Part shown: positions 3,210 to 11,607 of the stretch, piece after piece
Numbering within the stretch: the first letter of the stretch is position 1
Layout of the letters: every line of letters starts with the position of its first letter
Source: a virus
DNA length: 24,082 nt
Reading direction: 5' to 3' (one strand)
IMG/VR virus record: IMGVR_UViG_3300038629_000383
Span: 1-24,082 of that record
Program-made: the position numbers and the translations under genes
Notes under the pieces: generated by a model
Database searches by the model: none
Told to the model about the DNA's origin: nothing
What the model saw: the letters and a program-made list of their open reading frames with translations, nothing else

Positions 3210-3526
3210 TGGAACATCAATGGCCAGCAACAAATAGAACAATAACGATAGAAGAAGGAGATTATGTAGCAGAATTAAGGACTATTAATCCAGGTGGCGC
3301 TATGATATTTATGGTCCCAAATGTTGGGCTAATAAAAGGTGCTTCGAATACTGAGTTTTTTGAAAGAAAGAAACTTACTAAGCTAATAAATGAGTTTGGT
3401 GCTCATGCAGACACTAAGGAAGAAACATTGGAATTAGCAGAGCAGCTAATTGGTACATTAATGTGGGTTGAATGTAGAGACTATGGAAAGTTTGTAGACA
3501 TTCAGGATTTCAGAAGAATCTATTAG
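3209..3526 (+). CDS. Protein of unknown function in recombination block, 105 residues
   Basis: ATG 3209 overlaps the Sak4-like stop (TAATG) and has AAAGGAG upstream. The N-terminal half is beta-rich (TITIEEGDYVAELRTINPGG), followed by an amphipathic helix with many Glu. No family is recognised. The position between Sak4-like and SSB-like genes suggests an accessory role in recombination. A large structured gap follows directly. Confidence 0.65.
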   Translation: MEHQWPATNRTITIEEGDYVAELRTINPGGAMIFMVPNVGLIKGASNTEFFERKKLTKLINEFGAHADTKEETLELAEQLIGTLMWVECRDYGKFVDIQDFRRIY

Positions 3527-3549
3527 GAAAGGGGTCGTGTGCTCCACCA

Positions 3550-3626
3550 GTGTCCACCTCCCGTACGATCTCGAAATAGCTAGGGGATAGTATACCTTGA
3601 ATCGAGATCGTCGCTTAGGTGGACAC
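3550..3626 (+). promoter_or_regulatory. Two-tier RNA hairpin upstream of the SSB-like gene
   Basis: GTGTCCACCT (3550-3559) pairs perfectly with AGGTGGACAC (3617-3626). After a symmetric 5x5 internal loop, ACGATCTCGA (3565-3574) pairs perfectly with TCGAGATCGT (3602-3611). The apical loop is 27 bases and contains GGGGATAGTATACC. Twenty paired bases without a mismatch between two coupled genes are very unlikely by chance. The symmetric internal loop flanked by long helices could be an RNase III site or a protein-binding element. The gap 3527-3702 contains no gene. Confidence 0.75.
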
Positions 3627-3659
3627 CTACGAGGTCTCAAAAGCAAGCAATTAGGTGAA

Positions 3660-3690
3660 TAACGCTACCTTAAAGTGCGTTAAAATTTTT
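3660..3690 (+). terminator. Short hairpin with U-run before the SSB-like gene
   Basis: TAACGC (3660-3665) pairs with GCGTTA (3677-3682), then AAA and five T (3686-3690). GGAG follows immediately and serves the start at 3703. Like the element at 1539, it puts a terminator-like signal directly before a ribosome binding site, as an attenuator would. Confidence 0.45.
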
Positions 3691-3702
3691 GGAGAAAATA
3701 AA

Positions 3703-4155
3703 ATGGCAGAACTACCTGGCGTATTTAACGCAAAGGAAAATGAGAAGATGGGTGGGTTTGATCCCGTTCCAGCTGGTTGGTATATAGCAGAAGTAGTTAA
3801 ATCTGAGATGAAAAATACCGCTGCTAAGACTGGCAAATACCTGAACCTTCAGTGGAAGATTACTCAGGGTGAGTATAAAGGGCGTATGTTCTTTACTCTC
3901 ATGAACCTGGTCAACAAAAACCCGATAGCAGTAGAGATTGCTCAAAAGGAATTGGCATCAGTCTGTGAAGCAATGGAGATTGATGAGCTTGAGGATTCAG
4001 TGGAGCTTCATGATATTGAAATTGGCGTTCGCTTGTCAGTAAAGGCTGGTGATGCTAACTGGCCACCAAAGAATGAAGCTAAAGGATATAAGCCTGCTTC
4101 TGAGGTTGAAACTGAAGACGAGGAGGGTGACAAATTCCTGGATGAAGCTTCTTAG
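3703..4155 (+). CDS. DUF669 family single-strand DNA-binding-like protein
   Basis: I place the start at ATG 3703, with GGAG (3691-3694) 8 bases upstream. The in-frame extension to 3655 would run into the hairpin region and lacks a binding site. The 150-residue protein has the DUF669 layout: MAELPGVFNA, then P-AGWYIAEVVKSEMKNT, GKYLNLQWKI, YKGRMFFTLMNL (about residues 59-70), a helical AQKELASVCEAM, and a very acidic tail ending EDEEGDKFLDEAS. DUF669 proteins accompany Sak4-type recombinases in phages and are regarded as SSB-like OB-fold proteins; the acidic tail resembles SSB interaction tails. It should coat replication and recombination intermediates. The gene sits between two structured RNA gaps. 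Confidence 0.8.
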   Translation: MAELPGVFNAKENEKMGGFDPVPAGWYIAEVVKSEMKNTAAKTGKYLNLQWKITQGEYKGRMFFTLMNLVNKNPIAVEIAQKELASVCEAMEIDELEDSVELHDIEIGVRLSVKAGDANWPPKNEAKGYKPASEVETEDEEGDKFLDEAS

Positions 4156-4189
4156 GAATCTATTGCCATGGACGGCCTAATTGAATTCC

Positions 4190-4258
4190 CTGCTGTACAG
4201 GGGTTACACGGCGCCCTCTGGGCTGTACAGCAGATTACCTAGTGACTCAGAGGGCGCC
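4190..4258 (+). promoter_or_regulatory. Candidate H-type RNA pseudoknot between SSB-like and nuclease genes
   Basis: Two perfect 11-bp inverted repeats are interleaved. Stem A is CTGCTGTACAG (4190-4200) with CTGTACAGCAG (4223-4233). Stem B is GGCGCCCTCTG (4210-4220) with CAGAGGGCGCC (4248-4258), and it can gain a G-U and a G-C pair inward (4221-4222 with 4246-4247). The order A-B-A'-B' with a 9-base first loop, 0-2 bases at the junction and a 12-14 base last loop is the geometry of an H-type pseudoknot with coaxially stacked stems. It ends 18 bases before the nuclease ATG at 4277, so it could control that start or 3'-end stability of the upstream message. Both arms contain palindromes (CTGTACAG, GGCGCC), so a DNA operator or RNA kissing interaction is an alternative. 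Confidence 0.75.
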
Positions 4259-4276
4259 ACCAAATTAGAGGATGTT

Positions 4277-5104
4277 ATGGCTAAAATACCAAAACAAGAT
4301 ACGTTAAAAGAGTTCTTTGAAGAGGGGCTTGTATTACAAGACTTCCGGCCATACATAGGTATGTCCAGTTTAATGAGTGCATGCAAGAGACGCATCTGGT
4401 ATGACTTCCGCTGGTCATGCGACCGTTATATAGACAAGCGCATAGCTCGTATATTTGAGCGAGGCAACCTGGAAGAAGAAAGGGTTGTTCGTGATCTACA
4501 GGCAGCCGGCCTAAAGGTAACTGATGCCCTAGATGAACAAGTAGAACTAGTTGATGATACTGGTCATATCAAAGGTCACCCTGATGGTAAGGTATCTAAG
4601 CTGCCTAATGCTCCGGTCAAAATTCACTGTCTGGAGATAAAAACTAAAAAGGCCAGCCTTTATGCTAAGTACCTCAAAGAAGGTTTGGAGAAGAGTGATC
4701 CAGCTTACTGGGGTCAGATTCATACCTATATGGGAGAGCAGAAACTAACAAGAGCACTCTTCATAGTTACTAACAAAGACACAGAGGAGCGGGACTATAA
4801 GCGAATAGAGTATGATGCTACCGTCCATCGAGACTGTATGAGTATAGGGATGGATGTCCTGACCTCAGAAGCTCCACCAAAGAAGATTGGAACTCATACT
4901 TGGTTCGAATGTAAGATGTGCTCGAACATGGGTATCTGCCATAAGGATGAATCAATCAAACGTACCTGTCGTTCTTGTAAGCACGTTAATATTGAGATGG
5001 AAGGCAAGTGGTCTTGCGGATATCATGATGATTTAATCTTGATGCCGGCTAATCAAATGGCAGCTTGTCCTGATTATGAACTAGATGAGGTATTTTTACA
5101 ATGA
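4277..5104 (+). CDS. Cas4/RecB-type PD-(D/E)XK nuclease with Fe-S cysteines
   Basis: I place the start at ATG 4277 with AGAGGA just upstream. The frame stays open back to a TTG at 4181, but that would translate through the pseudoknot and has no binding site. The 275-residue protein has the nuclease core GHPDGK (100-105), E120-I-K122 and Q147, matching the H/G-D-(E)XK-Q order of RecB/Cas4 nucleases. C36 plus C212, C215 and C221 are spaced as in the iron-sulphur cluster of Cas4 and AddB. Four more cysteines near the end (C231, C234, C247, C264) could form a zinc ribbon. It should resect DNA ends for the Sak4/DUF669 annealing pathway. Its last bases overlap the next start (ATGA). Confidence 0.8.
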   Translation: MAKIPKQDTLKEFFEEGLVLQDFRPYIGMSSLMSACKRRIWYDFRWSCDRYIDKRIARIFERGNLEEERVVRDLQAAGLKVTDALDEQVELVDDTGHIKGHPDGKVSKLPNAPVKIHCLEIKTKKASLYAKYLKEGLEKSDPAYWGQIHTYMGEQKLTRALFIVTNKDTEERDYKRIEYDATVHRDCMSIGMDVLTSEAPPKKIGTHTWFECKMCSNMGICHKDESIKRTCRSCKHVNIEMEGKWSCGYHDDLILMPANQMAACPDYELDEVFLQ

Positions 5105-7154: not shown

Positions 7155-7760
7155 ATGGCAAAAGCACAAGAAGCAACTGAAGTAACCGAATCAGCTGATG
7201 AGATCAGTGAAATTCTCAATTCATTTAATGCCGGTGTCGATTCTGACAAAGGTGAAGATGAAGTGAAGATGGATATGATCGGAGCTGGAGCTACGTTTAA
7301 GAACGTAACTCGTTTGTATAACCAGTACATGATTGACACTGGTCGCTCAATGTCCAAAGAAGCGAAAACCACTCTCCTGGATGACAACCTTAATGATGCT
7401 CCCCTGGATACAGAAGAAGGGTTTAAGGCAGCAGTAGCTGTTGTAGTCAAGAAAGGCAAGAACGTTACGGATGGTTCAGCAGCCTCATTGATTCGTGCCT
7501 GGGCGAAAAAGAATGAAACTGAGTGCTACAAAGCTCCGGCTTCTGAAGGTACTCGTAACCCATTCGTTCCGAACTATCACAAGGCACTTATTGCTAATCC
7601 TGCAATGACCGAGCAAGGATTGAAGGACGTGATTGAAGCCCTGGAAAAAGATGAGTGGAAAGTTAATCCTACTCGCTGGTTCAATCAGCAAAACGCTATC
7701 CGTAAGATGGTAAATGCGGTTAACGCCAAGCTGACTGGAGCAGAAGCAGAAGCAGCATAA
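7155..7760 (+). CDS. Protein of unknown function, 201 residues, between structured RNA elements
   Basis: It starts at ATG 7155 after a GGAG site. The first 45 residues are acidic and probably disordered. A helical region follows (about 50-130: FKNVTRLYNQYMIDTGRSMS, then KAAVAVVVKKGKNV), and the C-terminal third has a Trp-containing NPTRWFNQQNAIRKMV segment and ends in an Ala/Glu tail. I do not recognise a family. It is one of few genes here that is not overlapped by its neighbours: three hairpins lie upstream and a 200-base structured gap lies downstream. That arrangement, and more GC-rich codons by eye, suggests high or independent expression, for example an abundant DNA-binding or host takeover protein. 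Confidence 0.7.
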   Translation: MAKAQEATEVTESADEISEILNSFNAGVDSDKGEDEVKMDMIGAGATFKNVTRLYNQYMIDTGRSMSKEAKTTLLDDNLNDAPLDTEEGFKAAVAVVVKKGKNVTDGSAASLIRAWAKKNETECYKAPASEGTRNPFVPNYHKALIANPAMTEQGLKDVIEALEKDEWKVNPTRWFNQQNAIRKMVNAVNAKLTGAEAEAA

Positions 7761-7961
7761 CACCCGGTCAAGGTGAGTCCTTTAGAGGTGTGGACAAAAA
7801 TACAACCTCAGAATGGGTGGGAATCCCTACTGGGACACCGGTGTTTATGTGGAGTTTTCCCCGGTGCTCCCAGTTCATCTTCCGCCTAGGTAAGCTCACG
7901 GGAAACTGCCTTTGCACCTAAGCATGTGCAAGAGATAAACTGCTCTTTTACTGGAGGCATT
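7759..7961 (+). promoter_or_regulatory. Long structured leader of the DUF3310 gene with competing stems
   Basis: A strong hairpin pairs ACTGGGACACCGG (7829-7841) with CCGGTGCTCCCAGT (7861-7874): 13 bp and one bulged C. Its 5' arm can instead pair far upstream: AACACC-C-GGT (7759-7768) with ACCGGTGTT (7837-7845). Near the gene, TTGCAC/GTGCAA (7912-7917 with 7926-7931) competes with a stem joining TGCCTTT (7907-7913) to GGAGGCA (7953-7959), which would hide the ribosome binding site. Mutually exclusive stems of this kind occur in riboswitches and protein-sensing leaders, but no known class is recognised. The stretch holds no gene. Confidence 0.55.
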
Positions 7962-8731: not shown

Positions 8732-8918
8732 TTTAAAAGGAGTTGGTGATAATGACGGATATTTCGAATATACATTTCCTATTATCAAAAGCGAGCTTCA
8801 GAAAAAATTAGAACGACAAGGCTGTGCTTTTAAAGGGCAAGAATTATTAGCTAATCATGAAGCTGATCCAGAAAAACCTTGTTATTGTGGAAGACCAAAT
8901 GAATATAATTCAGACTGA
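8712..8918 (+). CDS. Small protein with CYCG motif, 68 residues
   Basis: The frame runs from ATG 8712, 20 bases inside the exonuclease gene, to 8918, 20 bases inside the polymerase gene. The protein begins MNIKKINLKGVGDNDGYF, has a charged helix (SELQKKLERQ) and ends PEKPCYCGRPNEYNSD, where the two cysteines could bind a metal. The start lacks a clear ribosome binding site, so translation may depend on the upstream gene. The frame bridges two genes exactly, which supports it. Function unknown. Confidence 0.55.
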   Translation: MNIKKINLKGVGDNDGYFEYTFPIIKSELQKKLERQGCAFKGQELLANHEADPEKPCYCGRPNEYNSD

Positions 8919-11607
8919 GTATTCCTTTAAGCAAGTCTTTTATCACCTGGAGCAAGCCATTGATGATTCTATTAATTCTGGCCATGATAGCATTTGCATT
9001 ATGGATAACACGACCTTCGGTTATGTCAAATTCGAGAAGATCTGCCGGGAGAAGGGCATTCGACCCATATTTGGACTTAGAGCCATTATGTGCGATACCC
9101 AGCTTAAGACCCGCTCAAAATACGAAACGTGTAATGAATCGGAGGAAGTCTATTTAATAGCAACTTCTCAAAGAGGTATCTCTGAGCTTTATAAGATTTA
9201 TACAAAGAGTACAGAGCAGAAGTATTACTTCAATCGTATCTATCCAGAGAATCTGGAGGGGACTAATCTATATGTTATATCCAATAAGTTTCCAGCTAAT
9301 TGTAAGAGAGACGATATTTGTATTCCGTTCGCTAAGTATTCCAGCCCTGATCATATATCTACTTATCAGTGTATCTCTGGGTCACGTGGAGTTCCAACTC
9401 GCGAAGAACAATACCTTAGTGATCTGGGTTTACTCAGATATTGGACTCCCTCGCAGATAGACAAGAAGAATGCTATCCCTCATATTATTGATGATTACGA
9501 GCTTCCAAGAGCAGGGATGATCAAGTACAATGGAAAACGTAACTTTATGTTAGCTTGCTGGAGTGGCTTTACTGAATTAGGATTTGATGAAGATGGTGAA
9601 TATGGTGATCGCCTTAGTTATGAAATAGATATGATCATGAGCAAGAACTTTCAAGATTACTTCCTAATCGTATCAGATATGATAACAAAGGCCAGAGAAA
9701 CTATGATTACTGGCCCTGGCCGGGGCTCATCAGGAGGTTCTCTTGTATGCTATTGTTTGGGTATTACTAATATTGACCCGCTCAGGTTCGGTCTTATCTT
9801 CGAGAGATTCATTGATATTAACAGGAGTGATTTCCCTGATATTGATACCGATTATCCAGATACAACCCGGCCAGAGGTTCTAAAACAGGTAGCTAGGCAA
9901 TATAAATCAGCTGCTCAGCTTTGTACCATTACTACCTATCAGCCTAAGACTGTAATCAATGACTTTGCTAAAGAGTATCATATCCCGGCCTATGAACTGA
10001 ATGAGCTTAAAGACTCTATAATTGAACGTAGTTCAGGGGATGCTCGTGCTAAGGCTTGTCTAGCTGATACATTCGAAGGTACAGAGATAGGAAAGAAATT
10101 CCTGGAACAGCACCCATATATGATATCAACCACACCAGCGGAAGCCCACGCCAGGCACTCTGGAAAACATCCCGCTGGTATTATCGTTCTTGATGAGGAT
10201 ATTAATCACTATGCAGCCTATGATCATAATTCTAATAACATCTGTATGGAGTATGCTGATGCTGAATCCATAGGTCTTCTGAAGATAGATGTCTTAGGAT
10301 TGCGAACTCTATCAGTTATACAAAATTGCTTAGAACTATCTGGAGTAGATATAAATGAAATATATACTATTGATTTGGAAGATAGCAACGTACTCGATGT
10401 TTTTAATACTATGGACATGTCTGATATTTTCCAATTCGACGGTGACGCTATTCGAATGGTCAATAGCCGTATATGTGTCAGTAATTTTTCTGATTTGGCG
10501 GCTATCACCGCTTTGGGTAGACCAGGCGCACTTAACTCAGGAGGAACGAACCGATACATTAAGGTTGCTTCTGGTGAAGAAGAACCAATCTATTATGGAG
10601 AACTCTACGAAAGAGTAACTAAGCCAACCCACGGGATTGTAGTCTATCAAGAGCAGACCATGCTCTTACTTAAGGAATACGGTGATCTATCCTGGAATGA
10701 TGTTAATATCATGAGAAGGATTATATCCAAATCTAGAGGCAAGGAATTCTTCTCCAAGTATATGGACAAGTTTATAGCTGGAGCAATTAAGCTTGGTCAC
10801 GCTAAGGATGAAGATGAGGCAATGATAGTCTGGACTGCTGTATCAGAGATGGGGTCTTACGCTTTTAATAAATCCCACGCAGTAGGTTACGCTATGATCT
10901 CTTATTGGTGTGCTCACTGTAAGCTCGAATATCCGCTTAACTGGTTAGCATCTAATCTTAATAATGCTAAGGACTCCGGCCATGGGCTCAGAATGCTTCG
11001 TAAGTACGTCGAGATACATCCTGAGTTAGAGTATGTTCCGGTCGATCCAGATACTTCTGAGATAGGTTGGACAATCCAGGATGGAGTTCTAATAGGTGGC
11101 CTAACCAATATCCACGGGATAGCAGAGATAAAAGCCAAGGAGCTTATAAACAAGCGAGAGATGGGGATTATGCCAACTCCGGCTATGTTCGAGAAGCTAT
11201 GTAACCCGATTACAGATTATGATGAGCTTTACCCTATGGCTAAGAACTATAAGCATATCTATGACAAGTGGGATATAACAAAGATAGAAGATCTATCCCC
11301 AGGAGCATTAGCTGTTACTATAGGTCGGCTTACCATGAAGGATCTGCGTGACCGGAATGATGTTCAGTCTCTTATGAAGAGAGGAGGCAAGCGGGTAGAG
11401 GAAAATACACATTATCTTAACTTGATTATCGAAGATGATACAGGAGCAATTAAGTGTACATTAGCACCTTTCGATATGGATCAGCTAGAAGGATTAAGAC
11501 TCGCGGAAGAATTAGTTGTTGGGTCTGTTGTAGCTGTCCATGGTCAAATCCGGGAGGGTTGGCAAACTATATCAATTAAAGGGGTTAGCCCCATAGAGGA
11601 TTTATGA
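8899..11607 (+). CDS. Family C DNA polymerase (Pol III alpha / DnaE type)
   Basis: I set the start at ATG 8899 with GGAAG five bases upstream, giving 902 residues, shorter than typical bacterial DnaE (about 1,100-1,200). The N-terminal PHP-like domain retains FGYVKFEKICREKGIRPIFG but not the HxH metal motif, so it looks inactive. The catalytic palm has GPGRGSSGGSL (about 272-282), PDIDTD with two catalytic aspartates (about 313-318), HARHSGKHPAGIIV (about 417-430) and KIDVLGLRTL with the third aspartate near 464. Later FNKSHAVGYAMISY is the usual finger signature. A C-terminal OB-fold-like domain (about 830-902) ends the protein. It should be the phage replicative polymerase, with the separate DnaQ-type exonuclease as proofreader. 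No sliding clamp gene is visible. Confidence 0.9.
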   Translation: MNIIQTEYSFKQVFYHLEQAIDDSINSGHDSICIMDNTTFGYVKFEKICREKGIRPIFGLRAIMCDTQLKTRSKYETCNESEEVYLIATSQRGISELYKIYTKSTEQKYYFNRIYPENLEGTNLYVISNKFPANCKRDDICIPFAKYSSPDHISTYQCISGSRGVPTREEQYLSDLGLLRYWTPSQIDKKNAIPHIIDDYELPRAGMIKYNGKRNFMLACWSGFTELGFDEDGEYGDRLSYEIDMIMSKNFQDYFLIVSDMITKARETMITGPGRGSSGGSLVCYCLGITNIDPLRFGLIFERFIDINRSDFPDIDTDYPDTTRPEVLKQVARQYKSAAQLCTITTYQPKTVINDFAKEYHIPAYELNELKDSIIERSSGDARAKACLADTFEGTEIGKKFLEQHPYMISTTPAEAHARHSGKHPAGIIVLDEDINHYAAYDHNSNNICMEYADAESIGLLKIDVLGLRTLSVIQNCLELSGVDINEIYTIDLEDSNVLDVFNTMDMSDIFQFDGDAIRMVNSRICVSNFSDLAAITALGRPGALNSGGTNRYIKVASGEEEPIYYGELYERVTKPTHGIVVYQEQTMLLLKEYGDLSWNDVNIMRRIISKSRGKEFFSKYMDKFIAGAIKLGHAKDEDEAMIVWTAVSEMGSYAFNKSHAVGYAMISYWCAHCKLEYPLNWLASNLNNAKDSGHGLRMLRKYVEIHPELEYVPVDPDTSEIGWTIQDGVLIGGLTNIHGIAEIKAKELINKREMGIMPTPAMFEKLCNPITDYDELYPMAKNYKHIYDKWDITKIEDLSPGALAVTIGRLTMKDLRDRNDVQSLMKRGGKRVEENTHYLNLIIEDDTGAIKCTLAPFDMDQLEGLRLAEELVVGSVVAVHGQIREGWQTISIKGVSPIEDL

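Follow-up and report, generated by a model that had tools for sequence, protein, structure and literature searches.

A pseudoknot beside a phage gene for a single-stranded-DNA-binding protein (SSB) is known from the gene 32 operator of phages T4, T2 and RB69. The T4 pseudoknot is found 67 nt ahead of the gene 32 start codon; behind it, an unstructured tract with UUAAA/UAAA repeats extends over the ribosome-binding site (PMC535899; PMC3014915). Two other described RNAs are comparable in part: the STAXI motif, which has at least two and usually three tandem pseudoknots and occurs near genes of single-stranded-DNA-binding proteins, and the L17 downstream element, a structured RNA behind the gene that it may control, for which feedback has been proposed (PMC2864571). 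DUF669 proteins belong to a different SSB family from gp32, and the homologue in HK620 is an SSB working with Sak4 (PMC5928155).

The element described here lies at 4190-4258 of the window, the whole stretch of 24,082 nt that was analysed (IMGVR_UViG_3300038629_000383, positions 1 to 24,082), and the features are collected in Table 1. Like the gene 32 operator it is predicted to be an H-type pseudoknot with stackable stems beside a phage SSB gene (PMC535899, PMC3014915), but it lies behind that gene and is about twice as large. It shares with STAXI the vicinity of an SSB gene, but consists of one pseudoknot only, and it shares with the L17 downstream element the place behind a gene, although hosts and genes are different. 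Neither likeness extends to an Rfam family: no match was obtained at the gathering score in the window and its relatives, none at E<=5 in the region 3400-4400, and permissive thresholds returned only weak matches far under the gathering scores.

Table 1. Features of the window and their positions.
Feature	Position	Strand	Basis or detail
Long imperfect hairpin between the 105-aa gene and DUF669	3550..3626	+	25-nt arms, 80% complementary; partly inverted in L002
Small DUF669 leader pseudoknot, AGGT-GAA-TAACGC-T-ACCT-TAAAGT-GCGTTA	3653..3682	+	shuffles, same-position pseudoknots in relatives
DUF669 single-stranded-DNA-binding protein gene	3703..4155	+	Pfam PF05037 E=3.9e-11; PHROG SSB families
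24-codon ORF	4168-4242		ATG, weak Shine-Dalgarno
Possible outer stem CTAATT/AATTAG, 6 bp	4177-4182/4263-4268 (4177..4268)	+	minimum-energy fold
Core H-type pseudoknot	4190..4258	+	repeat search, pseudoknot energy scan
Stem A, 11 bp, CTGCTGTACAG/CTGTACAGCAG	4190-4200/4223-4233		exact, 100% complementary
Stem B, 11 bp, GGCGCCCTCTG/CAGAGGGCGCC	4210-4220/4248-4258		exact, 100% complementary
Cas4-domain exonuclease gene, downstream	4277..5104	+	phrog_1990 E=3e-64
201-aa protein gene	7155-7760		no Pfam/PHROG match
60-bp intergenic element	7770-7827		88% identical in L002
DNA polymerase III alpha subunit gene, bacterial-type, with PHP domain	8857-11607		Pfam

The location between an SSB-like DUF669 gene and a nuclease gene, as given in the preliminary description, was borne out by the Pfam and PHROG searches, which also placed a Sak4-like gene upstream of DUF669 and a helicase gene (Pfam) after the Cas4-like exonuclease. 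Between the DUF669 stop and the pseudoknot are 34 nt, and between the pseudoknot and the nuclease ATG 18 nt (ACCAAATTAGAGGATGTT). Neither a sigma-70-like promoter (+ strand of this gap) nor an intrinsic terminator (at the pseudoknot itself) was listed.

The two mismatch-free 11-bp inverted repeats reported earlier were recovered at exactly the same coordinates, interleaved in the order A-B-A'-B'. Stem B extends inward to 13 bp (4210-4222/4246-4258), as had been claimed, through the wobble pair G4221-T4247 and the pair G4222-C4246. With this 13-bp stem the loops are L1 = 9 nt (4201-4209), L2 = 0 and L3 = 12 nt (4234-4245), no unpaired base separates the two stems, and straight-line phosphate distances show both loops to be long enough to bridge them, which agrees with the earlier proposal that both stems could form at once and stack end to end. 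By sequence and geometry, the two interleaved helices and adequate spanning loops that make an H-type pseudoknot are present. Arm A holds an 8-bp palindrome (CTGTACAG) and arm B a 6-bp palindrome (GGCGCC), because of which the arms are partly direct repeats too; the exact complementarity of the arms reaches 3-5 bp past the palindromes. The possible outer stem encloses the pseudoknot and touches the first base of the nuclease Shine-Dalgarno sequence (GAGG 4268-4271), and it is not conserved in the closest relative (L002). The 24-codon ORF begins right behind the DUF669 stop and crosses arms A, B and A'; ORFs of this length are frequent by chance, and it is absent in L002.

Per 24 kb of Markov sequence, the number of perfect interleaved stem pairs is 178 at a minimum length of 6 bp, 11.0 at 7 bp and 0.63 at 8 bp, a drop of about 17-fold with each added base pair, and extrapolation from these 6-8 bp counts gives an expectation of about 1e-4 per window for an 11+11 bp pair. 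The element is the sole H-type candidate of the window with a stacking energy at or below -19 kcal/mol. Its stacking sum is -49.4 kcal/mol, whereas these 69 nt give -28.4 kcal/mol at best when the fold is nested, and a scan for H-type pseudoknots across 563 kb of loci from related phages found no candidate near -49.4 kcal/mol. The minimum-energy fold free of pseudoknots consists of stem B and a local hairpin in arm A. The usual pseudoknot penalty is about 10 kcal/mol, and after its subtraction the pseudoknot is still predicted to be favoured over the nested fold. Judged from its sequence, a large H-type pseudoknot is the best reading of the repeats.

DNA searches gave no homologue of the element in phages or plasmids and, among viral contigs, returned the same contig only; no second copy was found. 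There being no independent homologue, its own pairing could therefore not be put to a covariation test. A widespread family of the GTCCTTTAGA element was also considered and rejected, the two further contigs that match doing so within a large coding gene.

A second, smaller pseudoknot was found in the DUF669 leader, starting 50 nt before the DUF669 ATG, and was equalled by 0 of 300 shuffles. Leader pseudoknots at corresponding positions are present in L002 (TAAGGC-TTA-GGATCGGT-GCCTTA-GA-ACCGATCC), L095 (AAGGT-AATT-GTCTA-ACCTT-TAA-TAGAC) and L172 (GGGC-TAA-GTAGCTT-GCCC-ATTGA-AAGCTAC); including that of the window, they begin at -48 to -63 and differ in their pairing sequences. An energy of -16.5 kcal/mol is reached by 5 of 19 leaders (leaving out L009, whose candidate is better read as one hairpin) versus about 1.5% of random 75-nt windows from the same loci, a rate that is a guide rather than a clean test since the loop limits were chosen with the first examples already known.

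Compensatory changes were seen in a group of phages around Salmonella phage SE4, whose leaders read CGGC-CG-AACGCT-GCCG-GTAA-AGCGTT in SE4, ZCSE2 and four Rosemountviruses, GAGC-CG-AACG[CT]A-GCTC-CGA-TGCGTT in SE1_KM and fHy-Eco03, and ATGC-CG-AACGCA-GCAT-CAA-TGCGTT in Erwinia phage SOI901. Stem 1 occurs in three variants, each of them complementary, and in stem 2 the last pair changes from T-A to A-T. In the aligned columns all cells pair, versus 17-33% with the partner slid (four distinct rows, the outermost stem-1 pair being uncounted owing to a gap). Besides that of the window, the DUF669 leader pseudoknots with compensatory changes lie at 540-565 in L148, from 151 in L181 and L180 and from 199 in L182, and they are absent from other DUF669 leaders, among them those of L161, L166, L167 and L170. 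Stem 2 of the window leader has AACGC...GCGTTAAA in common with the SE4 group. The SE4-group pseudoknots are followed by A-rich repeats with TTAAAC; the tract 3' of the pseudoknot is GTTAAACATAAACTTAAAC in SE4 and GCGTTAAAATTTTTGGAG in the window, where one TTAAA overlaps the stem end.

The analogy with gp32 drawn in the preliminary description holds in one part and shifts in another: a pseudoknot does adjoin the SSB gene, but 4190-4258 lies behind that gene instead of 5' of its ribosome-binding site, and the 18 nt between it and the nuclease ATG contain no A+U-rich UUAAA/UAAA tract. The leader pseudoknot and its relatives, in contrast, are of H type, lie ahead of the SSB start codon and 5' of the ribosome-binding site as in T4, and show compensatory changes. 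By analogy, a gp32-like operator would fit the DUF669 leader better than 4190-4258, and the idea of an SSB operator seems plausible for the former and weaker for the latter. The phages with leader pseudoknots include culturable Salmonella, E. coli and Erwinia phages, and as the pseudoknots stand before a different SSB family, a repeated evolution of the same control would be directly testable in the Salmonella and E. coli phages.

The sequences 3' of the DUF669 stop were compared in 145 loci (54 clusters, some of the trailers being coding). A hairpin was found near the stop in 50 of the 54 clusters, some of them coding sequence, and where an intergenic gap exists it is often an intrinsic terminator, as in Vibrio phage VA-RY-3, Cronobacter phage Ss1, Salmonella phage SE4, Erwinia phage RF1 and several metagenome contigs. 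In a related clade (L095, L161, L166, L167, L170/171), with DUF669 proteins 44-51% identical to that of the window, the large loop of the hairpin pairs with bases just upstream, forming an H-type pseudoknot. The stem-1 pairings are TGGG/CCCA, GGT/ACC, CGGT/ACCG, CAGGT/ACCTG and ACCAGT/ACTGGT (only 3 bp in L161), and several positions covary with more than one complementary pair type; the clade loci are related to each other and not fully independent, and pairs were counted on a hand-made structural alignment since MAFFT failed to align these pseudoknots by structure. The trailer pseudoknots of L095, L166 and L167 were matched by 0 of 200 shuffles each, and of 848 U-tract hairpins taken from these loci as controls, 16 have such a second helix (at least 4 bp). 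Similar candidates in the Pseudoalteromonas phages L152 and L156 are better explained by a single 11-bp hairpin.

The search for compensatory changes, which had been suggested as a check, was answered at the same place by stem 1 of the clade, with no homologue of 4190-4258 itself contributing; the sequence of 4190-4258 cannot be aligned with those of the clade pseudoknots, and the element has no counterpart of their U-tract. The same gene pair with no covarying stems, which had been named as evidence against the pseudoknot, was encountered in many distant relatives with plain terminators. Tuning of the nuclease by the SSB, also suggested earlier, is not indicated: many relatives have an intrinsic terminator instead, and in L166 and L171 an extra ORF intervenes between the trailer pseudoknot and the nuclease gene, which ties the structure to the 3' end of the SSB gene. 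At the corresponding junction of L002 the pseudoknot is a different and weak one.

With a probability of about 0.5, 4190-4258 is an oversized H-type pseudoknot at the 3' boundary of the SSB message, serving as punctuation rather than as an intrinsic terminator. It resembles such a terminator in having a strong G+C-rich hairpin (stem B) soon after the stop, where relatives have theirs, but it has a second, interleaved helix, and stem B is followed directly by ACCAAATTAGAGG, with no U-tract, because of which intrinsic termination is probably not its function. The 11-bp and 13-bp stems would fold as one pseudoknot able to stack end to end, and we infer that both form together in the phage of the window. 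The element occupies the spot of the relatives' intrinsic terminator or pseudoknotted terminator hairpin, where a stable 3' structure could block 3'-to-5' decay of the SSB message or set a processing point, and the SSB level might thereby be uncoupled from that of the downstream nuclease. The dissimilar junction pseudoknot of L002 speaks against this reading, as do the failure to find a homologue of the element, its sequence and missing U-tract when set beside the clade pseudoknots, and the palindromes in both arms, which are unexpected for an element acting as RNA only. A wider scheme is put forward tentatively and is rather doubtful: by analogy, DUF669 SSBs may autoregulate through conserved leader pseudoknots, convergently with gene 32, and the same protein may read a second site in the 3' pseudoknots that are present in place of, or added to, the terminator, with 4190-4258 as the largest example. 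Literature searches found no description of DUF669 leader or trailer pseudoknots, which does not prove their absence, and 3' pseudoknots behind DUF669 genes would add a type of message end for which the literature searched gave no description.

A translational operator at 4190-4258, to which the DUF669 SSB would bind as gp32 does in T4, spreading over the nuclease ribosome-binding site or acting on its own gene, is unlikely. The adjoining SSB gene, the outer stem reaching the nuclease Shine-Dalgarno sequence and the precedent of a phage SSB (PMC535899) are in its favour, but the T4 operator lies ahead of the SSB gene, where the present leader has a candidate of its own, most relatives have a terminator at the DUF669-nuclease junction, and the A+U-rich repeat tract is missing from the pseudoknot to the nuclease start.

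The palindrome in each arm (8 bp and 6 bp), with the partial direct repeats it brings, would also suit a DNA element in which dimeric proteins occupy both copies of CTGTACAG and both of GGCGCC, the inverted repeats arising as a by-product. This is very unlikely, since CTGTACAG does not recur in the window, its one-mismatch matches occur at chance frequency, the gap has no listed + strand promoter of sigma-70 type, and the arms are complementary beyond the palindromes. It is equally hard to credit a switch in which stems A and B alternate, by co-transcriptional folding or by translation of the 24-codon ORF, and so expose or hide the nuclease ribosome-binding site. Stem A could form ahead of the synthesis of B', and both the nested fold (stem B with the arm-A hairpin) and the outer stem at the Shine-Dalgarno sequence are compatible with it; however, the loops are long enough for both stems to be present at once, the outer stem is the only competing pairing of the ribosome-binding site, and the small ORF, missing from L002, has a length often reached by chance.

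Small intergenic cassettes moving or flipping between positions offer another explanation, under which 4190-4258 would have no fixed role at the junction. The junction element of L002 corresponds to the window's 60-bp intergenic element (88% over 60 bp), and a stretch of 55 bp ahead of DUF669 has opposite orientations in the window and L002 (78%, E=3e-10). The near-universal junction hairpins of the relatives, however, point to a role at this position, and the lack of a second copy of 4190-4258 likewise makes the explanation improbable. Frameshift or read-through stimulators need a spacer shorter than 34 nt, and such a function was rejected for a pseudoknot this far past the stop, as were an HDV-like ribozyme (no hairpin between B and A') and a LexA-like or other operator (CTGTACAG unrepeated elsewhere in the window).

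Other intergenic regions of the window are structured as well. The inverted 55-bp stretch is hairpin-forming and runs from about 3564 to 3618 in the window and, in opposite orientation, from 2367 to 2421 in L002. The 60-bp element follows the 201-aa gene in the window and DUF669 in L002, and contains a small pseudoknot with an A-rich loop (7777-7809 in the window, 3051-3083 in L002), in which one stem-2 pair is changed on both sides. Structured intergenic regions flank the gene of the 201-aa protein on both sides.
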